The position numbers were made by a program, and so were the translations under genes. Shown here piece after piece: positions 9,074 to 26,917 of a stretch of DNA of 64,000 nt. The notes beneath the pieces are model-generated. The model searched no databases, was not told the DNA's origin, and saw only the letters and a program-made list of their open reading frames with translations. Position 1 is the stretch's first letter; each line of letters begins with the position of its first letter. This DNA comes from Phycisphaerae bacterium (GTDB taxonomy: Bacteria; Planctomycetota; Phycisphaerae; Sedimentisphaerales; Anaerobacaceae). Location: contig JADHXR010000012.1 in NCBI GenBank assembly GCA_016782865.1, positions 1 to 64,000 on the forward strand, given 5' to 3'.

Positions 9074-12000
9074 TTAATGCTCCCGTTCGAACTTCTCTCG
9101 GAGTTTCTTTGCGAACGGATCGTCGGGGTCCAAAGGCGGAGGCGCTGTCTTTGGATTGACGGTTGTCTTGACCATTATCAGCAGCGTCCTCGGCTCGGCT
9201 GTTATGCCGGAAGCGCGAAATGCTCTTCCGATGGCTGGCAGCTCGCCCAATATCGGCACGCTCCGTTCGGATTCAACGTACCACGTGAGCTTCTTGCCGC
9301 CGATGAGGAGCGTCTTGCCTTCGGGAATCACGGCGGTAGTCTTTACGTTGTCCACGGCGATCAGAGGGAACTTGTGTTTCTTCTTGTCCGGGCCGGCGCG
9401 CTGGTCGAAGCCTCGGAGCTGACGAAGCTCCCATTCAAAATCCAGGCGGACGTTCGTGGTGTCAGCTAACGCATCCGGCGTGAGCCGAACGGACATGCCC
9501 ACCTCGATGGGTTCCGGTTTCGGTTTGGCCCTTCCCGAAGGATCATTTGGATCGCTCGGAGTTGGGAAGTAATACTCATCTCTGACCGCTTTCATTCGGG
9601 CTTGTCTGCCGTCCGCTGCCGACACCTGGGGTGCAGCGAGCATTTTGGTGCCCTCATGAGCCCGGATTGCCTTGAGAAGGAGACTCGCGTTGAGTTCATC
9701 GAGAATGAGGCGATACGGTTGAGAGTTCGGCTCGGCGGCGGAATCGGCGAGAAGATGCTCCGACCATATCTCGGATGTGCGCACGGAATTTGCGTCGAGT
9801 CCGACATCTTTAAGGAAATCATCGGCTACCGTCAGAATCTGTGTTTTGATCAAGATGGAAGTCTTGTTGATGTTCAGATCGCTCAGTCTTTCAGGGCCGG
9901 CAAACTCAACGTGGCCGTCGTTGAACAGAACATTCGTTCCCTTTCCGTAATGCTCCAGTCCGATGTCATAATATATTACGATGTCCGGCCGGTCGGCGGT
10001 TGTTCTTCCTCCTGCAAGGTATGCGGGCTGTTGGGGCCGTGCGAATATTTCGTCCTTCAAATACTCTCGCAATTCATGTAGCCTGACCCTATCCGGGTAT
10101 TTGCCGTCGTGGTCGTTTGCGTAGACGCGCATTGCTCTGCCGAAAGACATTAGCTTCTCGGCAGAATCCTTGACCCGGCGGTCGAGTCCGACCAGCTTCT
10201 TGATCTGTGATGGATACATCGACTCCAGGTGGCCGTCCGAAAACAGCACGCTCGTGAACCCGTCGTTCGCAAACGGCTCTTTCTCACAGGCGATCGGCGC
10301 CCAGTTCTGCATCAGACCCAAATGCCTGCCCGGCGACAGATACTTGAGGTCTTCCATAATCCACTGGAAGCATCGCTCGCTGACAACATAAGGTTTCAAT
10401 GCGTCGAGCGTATCCGGCAGCTTGCCGTTATGTCCTTTTGCGTACGTCTTCATGGCAACGTACAATGGCCCCCACCTGTCATTCATCGCAGCGGCCGCGA
10501 GCGACCTGTAGTAAACACCCAGTCGCTTGAGTTCATTTCTCCTGATGCGGCGCACGCTGAAATCTGCAAACAGCGCATACGTGTCAGAGTCTTTTGCGAG
10601 CAATGCCGCGTCGTAGGCTATCGGCAATTGGAAAGTGTTGGGCTGGGCCGACTTGCCTCGCAGCACAAACTGCACATCGTCCAGAGCCCATTTGAGGTCT
10701 GCCTCGTTTGGCATATAGGGTTTCAACTCCAGTGCGGTGTTGGGCAGAGTCTCATCGTGCTCGCGGACATACAAGGCGACAGCCGAGGCAAGTCTGCTCA
10801 TCCTTTGAAACTCGTACTCGGCCTCCACTTCATCGATGGTTTTGGGGATGTTACGTCGAAAGATGAATCTGTCGCCACGTTTCTTCGCTTCCTCCAATTC
10901 AGCCTGCGAATACTTTCGAATCTTGAACTCAACTTCGACAGTCTGATCCTCGGCTACCTCGACCCAGCGGCTTGCAGGAGTGACCGTCGCTTCTTCCCTG
11001 CGCCAGTTATCACCTGGTCTCAGATAGATGCGATTTTGCCCCGGTGCTACGCGAATGCGAAATGAGCCGTCTTCGCGAAGACGAGACACTTCCACAGCCG
11101 CTCCACTATCGGGACGCGATGGTCCGTGAATAGATACGTCGGATGCGGCGCCGGGCTTGACAGGCTTGCCGGTCGCCTCATCGACAACTCGTCCCGTGAT
11201 AAATCCGCCTTCGATTAGAAGAAGGTCCGGCGCCTGTTGCGTTTGGCCTGTCTCGACCTTAAAAGAATCCAGGGCAACCATTGTAAAGCCCTCGGCCTGC
11301 GCCCAGATATTGTACCGGTTGCCGCCCAGAGATTCGAGTTTGTATTGGCCTTGATCGTCTGTCACTGTTTTCGCCCAGTTTACCATCATGCCTCCCGGGA
11401 TCGAGACGTGTTCAACTCCCTGGGCCTGGACTTTCACGCCGGCAGCGGGTTTTCCCGTCTTGGTGTACAGTACCCGGCCCGTTACAACTGCTGCGGGCTG
11501 TACGTTAATCACAACGTCCTTGCCCGGCTTGACATAAGTAAGGCTCCCGGCAAAGTCGCCGTGCGATACGAACAATTGAATTCTTGCGCCATCGGGGACG
11601 CCCGCAATTCGGAAAGCCCCGTCACTGTCCGTCGTGGAGGACCAACCGGGCAGCGGCGCCGACGTAAAGAAATCGTTGACTCCCGACCGCGGGTCTTCAG
11701 TCGCTCCCGGAGGTACTATCTGTCTCACCCACACCTGCGCCCCGGCCACCGGTTCGGAATCCTCAGTGACAATCGTGCCGGAAACTTCTGCCGATTCATA
11801 AGTCTTCAAATTCAGCGGACTCACGGTCTGCTCACAACTGTAGATACGTTTCCATGCAGGGCCGTGGCCGTCTGCGGGCACGAAAACGAGGTATCTTCTG
11901 CGCCCTGTATCTTCGGTCAGCGAAGCGACCGGCCCCAACCTGAATTGGCCCCTGAAGTAGGTTCTGCTCTCGGCTGCCAGTTCCGCAGTGTCGTCCACGG

Positions 12001-15000
12001 AAAAGACCAGCACGCGGGTGTCCGAGAGTGGGCGCCCCGCCGAATCGACACATCGCCCTAGGATTGTCATCTGTCGGGGAAATTCCGCCGGAACAGACTC
12101 GGCGCCGGAGCGCACTTTCTCCAGCAAGCGTTGGATTGCTCGATGATTCATGGGGGTCTGGAAGATGGCGAGTTTCGTCGGGTGTTGAATCGGATAAGGT
12201 GTTGCGGTGCCTTCGCCTGCATCATTAATATCGTACCAACTCTCAGACTCGACTCGCTTTTGGATGAACCGCACGAGATTGTTCGCCTGCATCATGGGAC
12301 TCATCCCACCGTGATCGTCAGGATCGTCGATGAGGTCGGTAACGTAGTAAACGCGAGCCATCATCTTTTGCGGCAGTTCCTTTGTTGTCGCTATCACAAT
12401 CACGCCGCCGTCCACCACGTAACTGACCTTTGTCGATTCGCTCGAAACGCCGGCCAGCAAAATCTCCAGAGCCTCGCCGACGAACTTGACGTCCCTCAGC
12501 GGATCCATCCTGACCGGGGTTGTCTGCTCCAGACCGACAGTTTCTCGTAAGTCCCTCCAGTTGGGTTGTATCTGCAAGGGAGGGTCGAAGGTGTTTTCCA
12601 AATCCTCTATTACCGCGCCGAAAGGCATTTCGGCCGAGAAGTCCGGCAGATCGACAATATCCTCCAGGCGTTTGTGCACCCGGGCATCCTCTTCGTCTAA
12701 TTGTTCGAGCAGCCAAATCTTGTCTTCCAACCCTTCCTTTATTTGCCGCGCCTGGATATCCTCTGGATCAATTGTGAGCAGGGCTTTCAACTGACCGACA
12801 GCCTCCTCATATCGTTGTTGTCTGAGATAGGCGTGTGCATTCTGCATCAGTTCAGCCAGTCTGTTCAGCCTGTCGGTCTCCATCCGCTCTCTGAACTGCC
12901 GCTGTGTTTCTCCTTCTATCTTCCGTTTTTCCTGCTCACGGTCGGCCTTATCTGGCGGTTTGACCGTGCCCACTATGGTTGGAGTCAGAATGAAGAGAAG
13001 CTCCCCCGCTTGCTCGGCGGGGGCGTTCGGATCACTGTCGATCTTAGTGTTCTTCCCAGGTTTGTTCTTGCCGTACATTATCAAGCTCATGCCGCCGATG
13101 ATGCGGGCCTGGGTAGAAATGCTGGTCTCGATCATACCCGGTGCCTGCCCTTCGCTCTTCGGCGCCGATAGTCTGGTGAAGGTTCCTTCGGCCGACAGCA
13201 TTATGTTGCCGTCGTCGAGGACCTTGGGGGTAATCCGAAGGTAGTCGATCACGTCCATGTACTCCGATTGAGTCGAGGGCGTGGTTGCCTTGCCCATCGG
13301 AACCTTCTGTTTTGATGAAACTTCGGCCTTTCCGCCGCTGACTACTTCGAGCGTTGGGTTCAACAAGATTTTCACCCAGCCTCTTGAAGCCAGCAGGTCG
13401 ACCATCGTGCGCAGTTTTTGTGTCGCCTGTGGGTCCTCGGTCACGAAGGAGGAATCGCCTACTGACCGCGCTGCCCCGGCTGCTTCCCTGATCAACTCTT
13501 TGACTGTCAGCTTCTCGCCCGTTCGCGCCGACTTGCCGGAGACCCTATATCTGCGAGTTAGCACTCCCTCTCTCCCTTCCGGGGTAGAAGTCGTTATTGT
13601 CGCCAGGAGATTCTCTATTGCTATCTGTGTCTCTCTGTCTATTTTCCCAGGAGGATAGATTTCGAGGATGCGTAAGTCAACTTGAATGATGGGCTTGTCC
13701 TCGCCTGGCGATGTTGGGCTTTTTGCAATTACCGGGCTGCGCGCAACACTCTCGGCCGATGACTCTTGTTTTCCGATAGACCATTTCTTGACCGGATCGA
13801 TCTGTTCCTCTTCGGTGGACGACTTCTGCGATTCATTGGGATCATGCGCATGATCTTCCACTTGCTTATCCTTGGGCTGGTCTTCTTCAACGTATCCGAA
13901 GTCGAATGCCGGATCGTTTATCTTGATTTGACTCGATTTGAAGGTGGATTTGCGGAGCACCGATTCAGGGGCGTATATCTGTTTCTTTCCGCTGATTGGG
14001 AACCAGACGCCGTCAGCTATCTCCTCGTACTTGGCAGTGGCGCGGCTGGTAAGATGCCCTTGCTTATCATAGTTTTCCCGCAGGGCGCACGTGTAGCCTT
14101 TGGACGGATCGATTACGGCAACTATTCTGCTGGTCCTGTAGTCAAATGCAATGCGATACGTGCCGTCCTTCAGTTTGCCGACGTCCACTTGCTTTTCAGC
14201 CGTGATGGTCTCGCCCAGGAACTTGCAGAGAATGCCGGTGAATACCCTCCAGGGGTGACCAAGATTGGGCATGTTCTGAGGTCCATATAATGACCCTCTG
14301 CCCGGCGTCCTCTTGCCCGATGAATCGTAAGATCCCGAGGTCAGTTCAATCTTTCTGCGACCGGCGTCGTCGATCCTGCATCTCAGAACCTGGTAGCTGA
14401 ACTCGGGAATCCGGCTCATGGATTCTCCTAATCTCTCCAATTGCTGCTCCGGAATACCCTTTTCCCTCTTTCTCTTTATTTGGATTTCAATCGCGTCTTC
14501 TCTTGCGGCGGGGTCACACCAGATTTCATATTCCGCGACATATTCAAGAGTTTTGACCCTCGAGCGATGCTCCAACATTTTGTCCAGTAGGAATTCGGCG
14601 GAATCTTCCGTCTCACTACGAGCGGTCAAGGCAAAGGTGGTCGGTATGACGATTGCCGCTATCAGCAGGATAGTGATTGCCGAGGGTATCCAACTGACCC
14701 GGCTGCCGTCGGTCGAGTCTTTGCCGAGAAGACGGCCTATTCGCCTGAGCAAATTGCCTCCGCTTGCTGCTATCGCCAATTCGCTCTGGCTGGATCGGAT
14801 TTCTTCCATCGAGGCCAGGGCTCTGGCGTAGCCGACCCGATCGCCTGATACGCCGACGGCCAGATCATCACAACAGTTCTCTCGCTCGGCGCGAATTCTG
14901 TGCGAGACCCACCACACGGCCGGATGATAGAAACCGAGCGTCTCGACGATCGTTTGCAGCATATTGACGAGATAATCATGTCTGCGGATGTGCGCCAGCT

Positions 15001-15700
15001 CGTGTGCCAGGATCGCCTCCAACTGATCCGTGCTGAGGCCCGTCAGGGCGATGGCGGGCAGTAGTATCACCGGGCGCAACCAGCCGACGACAGTCGGAAT
15101 CTGCACCAGGGCCGATTCGGTCAGTTGGACTGCTCGCGTGACGCCGAGTTTTTCCGCCAGCTCGTCCAGCTTTGCCAGCAGCGACGCATCCACCGGCTTG
15201 ACCATTCTTCTTCGCAGCCTCTGCAGTTGCGTCCAGCCGCCCAAGTGCCATAGAGAAAGGGCGAATACGCCGAAAAGCCATCCCGAGACTACGGAGGGCA
15301 GGGCGGGCTCAAGCCGATCGGAAGCGCGCTGCCTCCACGGAATCGCCGGAAGTGCTCTAGGCTCTTTGGATTTCGCGGGAACCTCAACTGCCGGCATTTC
15401 AGCCATCGGTATTTCTTCGACTTGCTCGGTGCGCAGAACGACGGGCGCCGACGCCGGCACAGCGGTCGGCTGCGCCGCCGAGACGCCTACCAACTGCATT
15501 GTCACGACTGGCAGTAGGACGATTAGCCCCAATGCCAGGCATGAAATTGTGTAACGCAGATTGGAAGAGGCTTTTCTCAATGCCGCCAGCATGATGGCTA
15601 GCAGTAACGCTGCCGCCGCTGCCTGCCAGACAAAGTGCAGCAGCGTCCAGCCGAGTCTTTGGATGACTTCCTGCGAAAGAATGCTCTCCAAGGCCGTCAT
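9074..15700 (-). CDS. giant M56 (BlaR1-like) peptidase fused to secretin-like, carboxypeptidase-regulatory and pseudopilin-tail-like regions
   Basis: A 2208-residue protein. Residues 1-370 are an M56 metallopeptidase: membrane helices near 18-42, 50-72, 139-155 and 338-360, the zinc motif HELAH at 233-237, then RAERENCCDDLAVG as in BlaR1. BlaR1 would next have a penicillin-binding sensor. Here there is instead a LolA-like region (about 370-600), a secretin-like region (about 660-920, ending LLFILTPTIVGTV), a helical stretch, an STN-like part (about 1020-1110), carboxypeptidase-regulatory repeats (about 1210-1580), two DGH tails like those of pseudopilins (SVLFSDGHLESM near 1817, NVLFNDGHVEF near 1924), and a second secretin-like end (GKTLLIGGKKLTW, VPILGELPAIG). 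The ATG follows the blaI stop after two bases, with GGGAGA before it. It is likely a membrane sensor-protease relieving BlaI repression. What it senses is unknown. Confidence 0.8.
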   Translation of the reverse strand: MTALESILSQEVIQRLGWTLLHFVWQAAAAALLLAIMLAALRKASSNLRYTISCLALGLIVLLPVVTMQLVGVSAAQPTAVPASAPVVLRTEQVEEIPMAEMPAVEVPAKSKEPRALPAIPWRQRASDRLEPALPSVVSGWLFGVFALSLWHLGGWTQLQRLRRRMVKPVDASLLAKLDELAEKLGVTRAVQLTESALVQIPTVVGWLRPVILLPAIALTGLSTDQLEAILAHELAHIRRHDYLVNMLQTIVETLGFYHPAVWWVSHRIRAERENCCDDLAVGVSGDRVGYARALASMEEIRSSQSELAIAASGGNLLRRIGRLLGKDSTDGSRVSWIPSAITILLIAAIVIPTTFALTARSETEDSAEFLLDKMLEHRSRVKTLEYVAEYEIWCDPAAREDAIEIQIKRKREKGIPEQQLERLGESMSRIPEFSYQVLRCRIDDAGRRKIELTSGSYDSSGKRTPGRGSLYGPQNMPNLGHPWRVFTGILCKFLGETITAEKQVDVGKLKDGTYRIAFDYRTSRIVAVIDPSKGYTCALRENYDKQGHLTSRATAKYEEIADGVWFPISGKKQIYAPESVLRKSTFKSSQIKINDPAFDFGYVEEDQPKDKQVEDHAHDPNESQKSSTEEEQIDPVKKWSIGKQESSAESVARSPVIAKSPTSPGEDKPIIQVDLRILEIYPPGKIDRETQIAIENLLATITTSTPEGREGVLTRRYRVSGKSARTGEKLTVKELIREAAGAARSVGDSSFVTEDPQATQKLRTMVDLLASRGWVKILLNPTLEVVSGGKAEVSSKQKVPMGKATTPSTQSEYMDVIDYLRITPKVLDDGNIMLSAEGTFTRLSAPKSEGQAPGMIETSISTQARIIGGMSLIMYGKNKPGKNTKIDSDPNAPAEQAGELLFILTPTIVGTVKPPDKADREQEKRKIEGETQRQFRERMETDRLNRLAELMQNAHAYLRQQRYEEAVGQLKALLTIDPEDIQARQIKEGLEDKIWLLEQLDEEDARVHKRLEDIVDLPDFSAEMPFGAVIEDLENTFDPPLQIQPNWRDLRETVGLEQTTPVRMDPLRDVKFVGEALEILLAGVSSESTKVSYVVDGGVIVIATTKELPQKMMARVYYVTDLIDDPDDHGGMSPMMQANNLVRFIQKRVESESWYDINDAGEGTATPYPIQHPTKLAIFQTPMNHRAIQRLLEKVRSGAESVPAEFPRQMTILGRCVDSAGRPLSDTRVLVFSVDDTAELAAESRTYFRGQFRLGPVASLTEDTGRRRYLVFVPADGHGPAWKRIYSCEQTVSPLNLKTYESAEVSGTIVTEDSEPVAGAQVWVRQIVPPGATEDPRSGVNDFFTSAPLPGWSSTTDSDGAFRIAGVPDGARIQLFVSHGDFAGSLTYVKPGKDVVINVQPAAVVTGRVLYTKTGKPAAGVKVQAQGVEHVSIPGGMMVNWAKTVTDDQGQYKLESLGGNRYNIWAQAEGFTMVALDSFKVETGQTQQAPDLLLIEGGFITGRVVDEATGKPVKPGAASDVSIHGPSRPDSGAAVEVSRLREDGSFRIRVAPGQNRIYLRPGDNWRREEATVTPASRWVEVAEDQTVEVEFKIRKYSQAELEEAKKRGDRFIFRRNIPKTIDEVEAEYEFQRMSRLASAVALYVREHDETLPNTALELKPYMPNEADLKWALDDVQFVLRGKSAQPNTFQLPIAYDAALLAKDSDTYALFADFSVRRIRRNELKRLGVYYRSLAAAAMNDRWGPLYVAMKTYAKGHNGKLPDTLDALKPYVVSERCFQWIMEDLKYLSPGRHLGLMQNWAPIACEKEPFANDGFTSVLFSDGHLESMYPSQIKKLVGLDRRVKDSAEKLMSFGRAMRVYANDHDGKYPDRVRLHELREYLKDEIFARPQQPAYLAGGRTTADRPDIVIYYDIGLEHYGKGTNVLFNDGHVEFAGPERLSDLNINKTSILIKTQILTVADDFLKDVGLDANSVRTSEIWSEHLLADSAAEPNSQPYRLILDELNASLLLKAIRAHEGTKMLAAPQVSAADGRQARMKAVRDEYYFPTPSDPNDPSGRAKPKPEPIEVGMSVRLTPDALADTTNVRLDFEWELRQLRGFDQRAGPDKKKHKFPLIAVDNVKTTAVIPEGKTLLIGGKKLTWYVESERSVPILGELPAIGRAFRASGITAEPRTLLIMVKTTVNPKTAPPPLDPDDPFAKKLREKFEREH

Positions 15701-22801: not shown

Positions 22802-23578
22802 ATGGGGACCATGAAAAAGACGAGAGCCTTCACTCTCATAGAGCTTCTGGTAGTCATCGCTATCATCGCACTGTTGCTCGCGATCCTGATGCCGGGCCTC
22901 CGCCAAGCTAAAGAACTGGCCAGAGAGGTAGTCTGTAAGAGCCATCTACAGCAATGGGCTATCTGCATGGAGATGTACACCTCCGAGTACGACGGCAAGT
23001 TCATGCCCGGCATTGACGAGGACTGGGCCACGGGTCAATACTCCTGGATATATACCCTGATTCCATATTACAACGACACGGACATCCGCCTCTGCCCCAA
23101 GGCCAAACGCACCGTCGAGCAGGGCGGCACGCTACCCTACTCCGCGTGGGATGTCAGCAAGACCAATCCCGACTCTTTTTCGCTACTCATCGAGCCGACG
23201 TTCAAGATCGGCAGCTACGGTATCAACTGGTGGGTCAACGACAGCGATCTGGTCAACGGCAACCACGACGTTAAGAACAAATGGCGACGCACCGGCCAGA
23301 AGATGCCCGGCGAGATTCCCGTCCTGATGGACTGCGGCTTCATGCTCGCCCGGCCAGAGCCCTCGGACCCGGCGCCGGCCAACGACGGAGAATTCCTCTG
23401 GGCCTTCGGCGGCGGCATGAGGCGCGTCTGCACGAGCCGCCACACGGGCGAAGTCAACATACTTTTCATGGACTTGGCCACGCGCAAGATACGCCTGAAG
23501 CAACTATGGCGCCTCAAGTGGCACCGCACGTTTACTGCGGCCGAACCTCAATGGCCCCAGTGGATAGAGAGGCTGTAG
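22802..23578 (+). CDS. pseudopilin-like protein with prepilin N-terminal methylation motif
   Basis: GAGGAGG lies five bases before the ATG. The 258-residue protein begins MGTMKKTRAFTLIELLVVIA, a type IV prepilin/pseudopilin leader with the cleavage-site-plus-Glu5 pattern (A-FTLIE) and a single N-terminal helix. The body is the globular domain that is common in planctomycete prepilin-like proteins (CKSHLQQWAICMEMYTSEYDG, FPxxDxxLCPKA-like LCPKAKRT) and ends with a variant DG-type tail (NILFMDLATRKIRL, with DL in place of DG). Such proteins are highly multiplied in these genomes; most are thought to be secreted or surface-displayed by a type II-like system. It shares an intergenic promoter region with the FAD-dependent oxidoreductase. 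Confidence 0.85.
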   Translation: MGTMKKTRAFTLIELLVVIAIIALLLAILMPGLRQAKELAREVVCKSHLQQWAICMEMYTSEYDGKFMPGIDEDWATGQYSWIYTLIPYYNDTDIRLCPKAKRTVEQGGTLPYSAWDVSKTNPDSFSLLIEPTFKIGSYGINWWVNDSDLVNGNHDVKNKWRRTGQKMPGEIPVLMDCGFMLARPEPSDPAPANDGEFLWAFGGGMRRVCTSRHTGEVNILFMDLATRKIRLKQLWRLKWHRTFTAAEPQWPQWIERL

Positions 23579-25630: not shown

Positions 25631-26917
25631 ATGAAACGCAAAGGTTTTACATTGGTCGAGCTGCTGGTCGTGATTGCGATCATAGCTCTGTTGATGGGCA
25701 TTCTGATGCCCGCCCTGTCCAGGGTCAGGCAGATCGCCTTTCGGATGGTCTGCGGGACGAACCTCTCGGGGATCGGCAAGGCGATGCTTATCTACAGCAA
25801 CGATTACGACGATGAGTTGCCGCGTTCCGGCGGTCGAAACAGCCCGTGGGCTCCGAAAATACCCAACTGGCAGGCGACGAATCGATACGGCGCCTACGGA
25901 GTATTGGCCAACGGTGAAGGCGGGGTGGGAAGTATCTCGTCCTGCTTTTACCTGCTGGTAAAGTACGCCGAGGTGACGCCCAAATCGTTTCTCTGCAAGG
26001 GCGATACCGGGACCAGCGAGTTCAAGCCTGGCAATTATGGTGCGGGCGCCAGGGATTTAATGGACTTGTGGGATTTTGGTCCGGAGCCGAAAGAGCATTG
26101 CAGCTACGCCTATCACATGCCTTTCGGACGGTACGCTCTGACCACGTCGGGCGAGCCCGGCATGGCGGTGGCGGCGGACAGAAACCCATTCACTGTGTCT
26201 CCAATGGCCGAGCCCAAGGATATAAGTTTGTTCGTGCCTGAGGGCGGCAGAGAGGCTATTAAGTTCGGCAATGCCAATCAGCACCAGGAAGACGGGCAGA
26301 ACGTGCTGTTCCTGGACAGCCACGTGAGTTTTGAGAAGACTCCGTACTGCGGCATCAACGATGATAACATTTACACCTACTGGGACGGCGGCGACATCCG
26401 ACGTGGCAGCGTGCCTATCCTTACGAGTGAGCCCCAGTCCAGAACGGATTCAATGGTGGTACATGATGCTGAAGGCGGACCTGACGAGCCGAAAGGCAGG
26501 ACTTGTTTTGTTGCTGATACCGGTGTCTGGGTAGACGGGGCGCTCGTGCAGATCTCAGAAGTTGCGCCAGGACAAACGGTCGGCAAGCTTCTCTGTGCGG
26601 CCCAGACAGCCCCTCTGGAGCAGATTGAGAAGGTCCAGGAACACAAAGGGACGTTCGAATGTCGCGACATTTTGCTCGAAAGCGGAAATCGCATCAGTGT
26701 TGTGGATGCACACCGCTTCATGCTCGATTCCGGAAGGTGGATCGCAGCACAGGATTTGCGAAGTGGCCTCAGATTGAAAACACTGACCGGCACTATCGGC
26801 ATCAAGAGCGTCGCGGTGAGAACGGCACCTTATACCGGTAAGGTCTACAATCTTAAGGTCACCAACAGCGAGCAGTATTTAGTGGGTAAAGATGGGGCAA
26901 TTGTACGTGATTGGTGA
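25631..26917 (+). CDS. pseudopilin-like protein with C-terminal Hint (hedgehog/intein-type) domain
   Basis: AAGGAG lies seven bases before the ATG. The 428-residue protein begins with a prepilin leader (MKRKGFTLVELLVVIAIIAL) and a pseudopilin body with the usual ending (NVLFLDSHVSFEKTPYCG). After a short linker, residues 292-428 form a Hint domain: Cys292 in GRTCFVADTGVWVDG, a block-B-like His in VVDAHRFM, WIAAQDLRSGLRL, and a last strand VYNLKVTNSEQYLVGKDG. Inteins end in His-Asn; this one ends VRDW, so C-terminal splicing chemistry is not expected, but N-terminal acyl shift at Cys292 could still cleave the protein or join it to a nucleophile, as in hedgehog proteins. It has its own promoter, long leader and terminator. 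The biological role is unknown. Confidence 0.85.
   Translation: MKRKGFTLVELLVVIAIIALLMGILMPALSRVRQIAFRMVCGTNLSGIGKAMLIYSNDYDDELPRSGGRNSPWAPKIPNWQATNRYGAYGVLANGEGGVGSISSCFYLLVKYAEVTPKSFLCKGDTGTSEFKPGNYGAGARDLMDLWDFGPEPKEHCSYAYHMPFGRYALTTSGEPGMAVAADRNPFTVSPMAEPKDISLFVPEGGREAIKFGNANQHQEDGQNVLFLDSHVSFEKTPYCGINDDNIYTYWDGGDIRRGSVPILTSEPQSRTDSMVVHDAEGGPDEPKGRTCFVADTGVWVDGALVQISEVAPGQTVGKLLCAAQTAPLEQIEKVQEHKGTFECRDILLESGNRISVVDAHRFMLDSGRWIAAQDLRSGLRLKTLTGTIGIKSVAVRTAPYTGKVYNLKVTNSEQYLVGKDGAIVRDW

Follow-up and report, generated by a model that had tools for sequence, protein, structure and literature searches.

A terminal Hint domain without the splicing asparagine on pseudopilins and other exported proteins of Phycisphaerae

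The Hint chemistry considered here is that of hedgehog proteins (PMC9163320) and of inteins and bacterial intein-like domains, or BILs (PMC5874633). In hedgehog, loss of the block-B Thr greatly reduces activity, and the D303H mutant keeps its activity and uses a broader range of acceptors (PMC9163320). BILs are internal domains that act on both of their ends by self-cleavage or splicing (PMC5874633). In polymorphic toxins, the HINT domain immediately precedes the toxin domain (PMC3482391). Burglin (2008) described C-terminal Hints in Myxococcus, Stigmatella, Serratia and other bacteria, some of them with signal peptides (PMC2362128). C-terminal modules on unrelated exported proteins of one genome are also a feature of the PEP-CTERM/exosortase, LPXTG/sortase and dockerin systems. 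Outside hedgehog-type proteins, we know of no well-established job for a Hint domain that has neither a C-terminal partner nor the splicing Asn.

Here we describe such a domain in a 64,000-nucleotide stretch of DNA (the window) from a Phycisphaerae bacterium. The Hint fold itself is known. What is new is the multi-head family without the Asn, a variant within the Hint superfamily whose mode of action may be hedgehog-like. In the open literature, we found no description of a terminal, asparagine-less, multi-head Hint family in planctomycetes.

A pseudopilin gene with a C-terminal Hint domain

The gene at 25631-26914 of the window, on the forward strand as are all its parts given below, is an intact frame of 428 codons with its stop codon at 26915-26917. 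Its N-terminus matches Pfam N_methyl at 2.7e-8 and TIGR02532 at 4.4e-7. With the prepilin leader GFxxxE and an N-terminal helix, the head is that of a type IV prepilin-like protein or T2SS pseudopilin. The leader MKRKG (residues 1-5) occupies 25631-25645, and the prepilin-peptidase site is expected before Phe6. At the leader, KGFTLVELLVVIAIIALLMGILMPAL is nearly identical across 20 aligned relatives. The leader is followed by a hydrophobic pilin helix (residues 6-34, 25646-25732; helix 8-41 in the AF2 model), a globular pseudopilin head (residues 35-265, 25733-26425) and a linker (residues 266-287, 26426-26491). The AF2 model of the full-length protein was poor (pLDDT 51), with the N-terminal helix and the Hint domain usable and the head not. 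Close pseudopilin paralogs, some of them in the same genomes as tagged forms (G036, G018, G028, G009), have the head without the Hint domain and stop after ...DSLLVHDPP, which is where the linker of the tagged forms starts.

Two other genes of the window were noted. A second prepilin-type gene, without Hint, lies at 22802-23575, about 2 kb upstream of the Hint gene. On the reverse strand, 9077-15700 holds an unusually long open frame of 2208 aa whose start resembles an M56/BlaR-type membrane peptidase.

The Hint domain spans residues 292-428 (26504-26914), and the protein ends with it. The first-pass annotation had called for a Hint profile search of this region. PT-HINT (PF07591) did match, with 21.5 bits (E 3e-4) on the whole protein and 24.2 bits (E 4.3e-5) on the domain alone, but both scores fall below the curated cut-off of 27.7 bits, so the profile evidence for this single sequence is suggestive only. 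The same profile matched 46 of 48 family members, and the best score seen (29.2 bits, a copy on L060) exceeds the cut-off. A profile built from the family matched 2lwy, a bacterial intein-like domain, at 2.5e-8.

For residues 273-428, the AF2 model reached a pLDDT of 87.6. Compared with the PDB by VIA-align, it matched 2lwy with Z 17.9, inteins with Z of about 16 and hedgehog (1at0 and 6tyy) with Z 15.7 and 15.8. There were 88 PDB chains at Z >= 5 and 85 at Z >= 8, and the matches shown were all Hint proteins. The structural match places Cys292 on residue 1 of inteins and on Cys258 of hedgehog. The predicted structure is a horseshoe all-beta fold of about 130-150 residues counted from residue 1, and both the Cys nucleophile at position 1 and the block-B His occur in 48 of 48 copies. 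Going by the predicted structure and sequence profiles, residues 292-428 are a Hint domain that starts at Cys292; the PT-HINT matches across the family, the match of the family profile to 2lwy and the structure matches of the model together settle this assignment. A prepilin N-terminus and a Hint domain from Cys292 are thus joined in one protein, as had been read from the letters, with the Pfam and TIGR matches agreeing at the N-terminus.

Active site, flank and C-terminal end

Conservation was counted in an alignment of 48 Hint copies from one Sedimentisphaerales-like family, which are 37-73% identical to the window copy. Cys1, His338, His361, Asn407 and Asp427 are invariant in all 48; Asn407 and Asp427 are listed, with Gly403, among the invariant non-catalytic positions. 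Cys292 (26504-26506) is Hint residue 1 and the putative nucleophile of an N-S acyl shift, and His361 (26711-26713) is the block-B His. A second Cys, Cys344 (26660-26662), is near-invariant (45/48).

His338 (26642-26644) stands at the N2 position. In the family profile it is aligned to the His that DnaE inteins have at N2, and its proposed equivalence to hedgehog D303/D46 rests on residue spacing to the block-B His. It probably takes the place of this general base. Since hedgehog D303H is active, a natural His at this position is credible, and it resembles the engineered mutant with wider acceptor use.

The first-pass annotation had listed the Cys, the block-B His and the VRDW end, and the protein sequence and the 48-copy alignment have all three. 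The active site is conserved in part. Cys292 and His361 are kept, but the Thr of the block-B TxxH motif is V or A in 46 of 48 copies and T in one, and the block-F Asp and His are replaced by Asn and by Asp or Glu. With these residues lost, catalysis could be weak or lost.

Just before Cys1 lies a conserved flank, P-P-P-K-G-R-x, of which the window protein has KGRT at residues 288-291 (26492-26503). Its K at -4 is found in 44/48 copies and its R at -2 in 45/48, and it is kept on unrelated heads. After cleavage, this flank would stay with the head-side product.

Where inteins have His-Asn-Cys/Ser/Thr, the window protein ends with Arg426-Asp427-Trp428 (26906-26914), and the Asp is present in 48/48 copies. 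Most copies (43/48) end with RD[YWFHN] and a stop, the last residue being mostly Tyr, Trp or Phe and rarely His or Asn. The other five end with LDC or VDC and a short tail. This subgroup has the pattern LDCS[KNQ]K.WE.LE.A.. or VDCSKLPKE (L059, L060:4286-7840, L061, L062 of G053 and L064 of G057), with a Cys at +1, and in one genome the ending occurs on subtilase, beta-helix and pilin heads alike. A distant member from another family, L199, ends with VVRDW like the window Hint.

Toxin-type Hints in 397 Phycisphaerae genomes have an HN end, mostly followed by a tail. Two other Phycisphaerae genomes have two to three tandem Hints divided by VHNKG in one open frame (L209, L215). Nearly terminal HN-type Hints with VHNKTEW, THNKPP and VHNKGP were seen in very large proteins (L206, L208 and L212).

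Compared with the hedgehog Hog domain (1at0, and the D46H mutant 6tyy), the family is alike in that the Hint lies C-terminal to a secreted head and is followed by no C-extein, and in having Cys1, the block-B His and an N2-position residue that could act as general base. It differs in that the window protein ends at the Hint without a sterol-recognition region, the N2 residue is His in place of Asp, the block-B Thr is missing, the -1 residue is mostly Ala, Thr or Gly where hedgehog always has Gly, and the heads are many and unrelated. An hhalign comparison of the family with one hedgehog sequence, checked against 1at0/6td6, was not significant (probability 2.5), and in a plain MAFFT alignment with hedgehog the N2 region was placed wrongly.

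BILs of types A and B (2lwy, from Clostridium thermocellum) are the nearest fold. They share the profile match, variable hosts and the lack of a homing endonuclease, but they have an HN C-terminus and an internal position with a C-flank, whereas this Hint is terminal and ends with RD and an aromatic residue. The intein ending of His and Asn/Gln, then Cys/Ser/Thr, is likewise replaced by RD-aromatic or LDC/VDC, with Asp in 48/48. The family therefore belongs neither to hedgehog, for want of the sterol-recognition region, nor to the inteins and BILs, for want of the HN. PT-HINT is the best Pfam family for 46/48 copies and is also found on bacterial exported proteins, but polymorphic toxins have a C-terminal toxin and an HN end, both absent here. 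The bacterial group of Burglin, compared by its description only, has a single N-terminal region in common, in which two Cys are conserved; by that description, the many unrelated heads, the KGRxCF start and the RD[WYF] end set the present family apart. Unlike the sorting tags, this module would carry a putative processing activity within itself.

Distribution, heads and selection

Among 99 genomes (the window genome and relatives), 20 have Hint matches, of which 17 are strong, and all 17 strong ones belong to the window's own family. A genome holds up to six copies. An even sample of the phylum gave no further genome with a Hint match at 1e-12. A scan of contigs with a 13-row Hint alignment found matches in Sedimentisphaerales/Phycisphaerae MAGs, one Pirellulaceae and one record labelled Zixiibacteriota. 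The last copy (L102) lies in a 2.6 Mb chromosome record, CP070766, labelled Candidatus Zixiibacteriota, with synteny at 43-54% identity to a planctomycete; it is either an old transfer or a mislabelled bin.

The window genome has about 100 prepilin-type matches versus only four Hint copies, which are on two pseudopilins (76% identical), an FGE-sulfatase lipoprotein and a beta-helix protein. Across the family, at least nine unrelated types of exported head carry the Hint. These include pseudopilin, FGE-sulfatase with CarboxypepD_reg, Disaggr_assoc/beta-helix, subtilase, LRR, GLUG, VIT-VWA, PQQ propeller and a membrane protein encoded within a type II secretion operon. In every copy and across head types, the Hint is the last domain. 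Among non-pilin heads whose N-terminus is complete, nearly all have a hydrophobic signal or TM segment or a lipobox; the reading is ambiguous for L035, which is fused in frame downstream of a transposase-like stretch, and for L051. Beta-helix paralogs carry alternative C-ends, for example dockerin-like ones. The protein with a VIT-VWA head and a C-terminal Hint (L081:4274-7354, G041) resembles the eukaryotic VWA-Vint proteins (PMC2362128), possibly by convergence.

The Hint is a mobile C-terminal module. Because the same tail occurs on a subtilase, on lipoproteins and beta-helix proteins and on further heads, it looks like a tag of general use on exported proteins and not like something peculiar to pilins. 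The search for prepilin-Hint fusions in other genomes, suggested in the first-pass annotation, did find them, but it also found the same Hint on many non-pilin exported heads. The idea of a self-processing pseudopilin is supported as to the Hint and its boundaries and too narrow about the proteins that carry it.

The Hint has changed heads repeatedly. On the Hint tree, nine changes of the pilin label are needed, at least five of them forced by starred branches. In genome G053, near-sister Hints are found on a subtilase, two beta-helix proteins and a pseudopilin. Between the window gene and a close same-genus homolog, dS is 1.64 in the Hint and 0.63 in the head; between two paralogs of G036, it is 0.78 and 0.18. 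Since the dS of the Hint is far above that of the head in both pairs, the Hint has swapped partners independently of the head. The dN/dS of the Hint, computed for seven pairs, was 0.10-0.19, and in five of them it was below that of the head. The Hint is under purifying selection.

The neighbourhoods of the Hint copies showed no dedicated partner gene, only housekeeping-type synteny, with one gene set around the window-type copies and another around the second pseudopilin. In G036 (L042:39-10821, C96), the gene for a Hint-tagged membrane protein lies between GspC-like genes and the GspD secretin of a T2SS operon, which also has GspK (PF03934), GspM (PF10741) and secretin (PF00263) families. A Hint-tagged membrane protein is also encoded in CP070766 (L102:2026-7113), a record labelled as a different phylum from G036. 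The presence of the tag on this T2SS-operon membrane protein, on pseudopilins and on secreted enzymes suggests that it may be a tag of proteins that use type II secretion. This type of operon was found in 8/10 Hint-positive versus 10/27 Hint-negative family genomes, a trend for which genome size and completeness are confounding factors. Nearly all relatives have exosortase, whether or not they carry the Hint tag, and its presence is uninformative on a link.

Proposed processing and its alternatives

N-S acyl chemistry at Cys292, which had been proposed from the sequence, is plausible, because Cys1, His338 and His361 are invariant, an invariant Asp stands where the splicing Asn would be, and the domain is under purifying selection. 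By analogy with hedgehog, the Hint would be a reusable C-terminal self-processing tag that transfers its head to an outside nucleophile after export. We give this reading a probability of about 40%. The protein would be exported first, by the prepilin route for the window protein and by Sec or lipoprotein routes for other heads, and the Hint would then fold. Cys292, aided by His361 and His338, would attack the Thr291-Cys292 peptide bond to form a thioester. Neither splicing nor C-terminal cleavage would take place at the Hint end, because the Asn is replaced by Asp, only an aromatic residue follows and there is no C-extein. An outside nucleophile would resolve the thioester, so that the head leaves with its C-terminal ...KGRT joined to the acceptor and the Hint is shed. 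Candidate acceptors are a surface glycan, a small molecule or another protein. Sterols and hopanoids were considered and are unlikely acceptors, as nine of ten Hint-carrying genomes tested had no match to squalene/hopene cyclase and the Hint has no sterol-recognition region.

Cleavage, its timing after export, and transfer in place of plain hydrolysis are steps that we infer. The kept KGR flank implies a defined product and so weakly favours transfer over hydrolysis. Against attachment, many heads are already anchored at the N-terminus, which would make a second anchor superfluous. Held more tentatively than the general reading is a specific form of it, a bacterial counterpart of hedgehog processing in which the mobile tag (PPPKGRxCF...VRD[YWF]) would transfer many heads, a pseudopilin, lipoproteins and beta-helix proteins among them, via a thioester onto a surface acceptor after export.

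A close rival to transfer, which we consider somewhat unlikely, is that water resolves the thioester; the tag would then be a timer or an aid to folding or export that is shed, leaving heads that end with KGRx. Release of this kind would need the same active-site residues as transfer, and it accords with a Hint that has no acceptor-recognition region and with neighbourhoods that have no partner gene. The thioesters of isolated Hints can hydrolyse, which gives a general precedent. However, the purpose of a KGR flank kept on the head side of unrelated heads is not obvious under hydrolysis, and a 130-residue domain under strong purifying selection would be a costly means of release when Hint-less paralogs do without it. 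Less probable again is that the Hint is never cleaved and its fold is kept as a stable binding or capping domain, such as a surface-anchoring or protein-protein module. The loss of the block-B Thr, the block-F Asp/His and the HN end agrees with this, as does the invariance of Asn407, Gly403 and Asp427, which are non-catalytic. But Cys1 and both active-site His residues are unchanged over 37-73% identical copies on many heads, and a structural role would be expected to allow some change of Cys1 among 48 copies.

We regard it as improbable that the Hint is a remnant of an intein or BIL with splicing or C-end cleavage still active. The nearest fold is a bacterial intein-like domain, and the five copies with LDC or VDC and a tail look as if a C-extein with Cys+1 had survived. 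Yet Asp for Asn in 48/48 copies rules against splicing, the penultimate His is gone, a splice partner is absent in 43/48, and the Hint, as a terminal domain, is under purifying selection. Release of a C-terminal toxin by a polymorphic-toxin Hint is hardly credible in spite of PT-HINT being the best Pfam match for 46/48 copies: there is no C-terminal cargo, and toxin-type Hints of the class end with VHN, mostly with a tail. It is contradicted by the copies themselves, which have at most one residue past the Hint core in 43/48 and a short tail in five.

A strictly kept active site on many exported bacterial heads offers a tractable system for the function of Hints of this kind. If the heads are transferred to an acceptor, this would be a new kind of protein sorting or surface attachment, and it would provide a natural handle for thioester labelling. 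Surface transfer by the Hint would then be self-contained sorting, without a sortase or exosortase.
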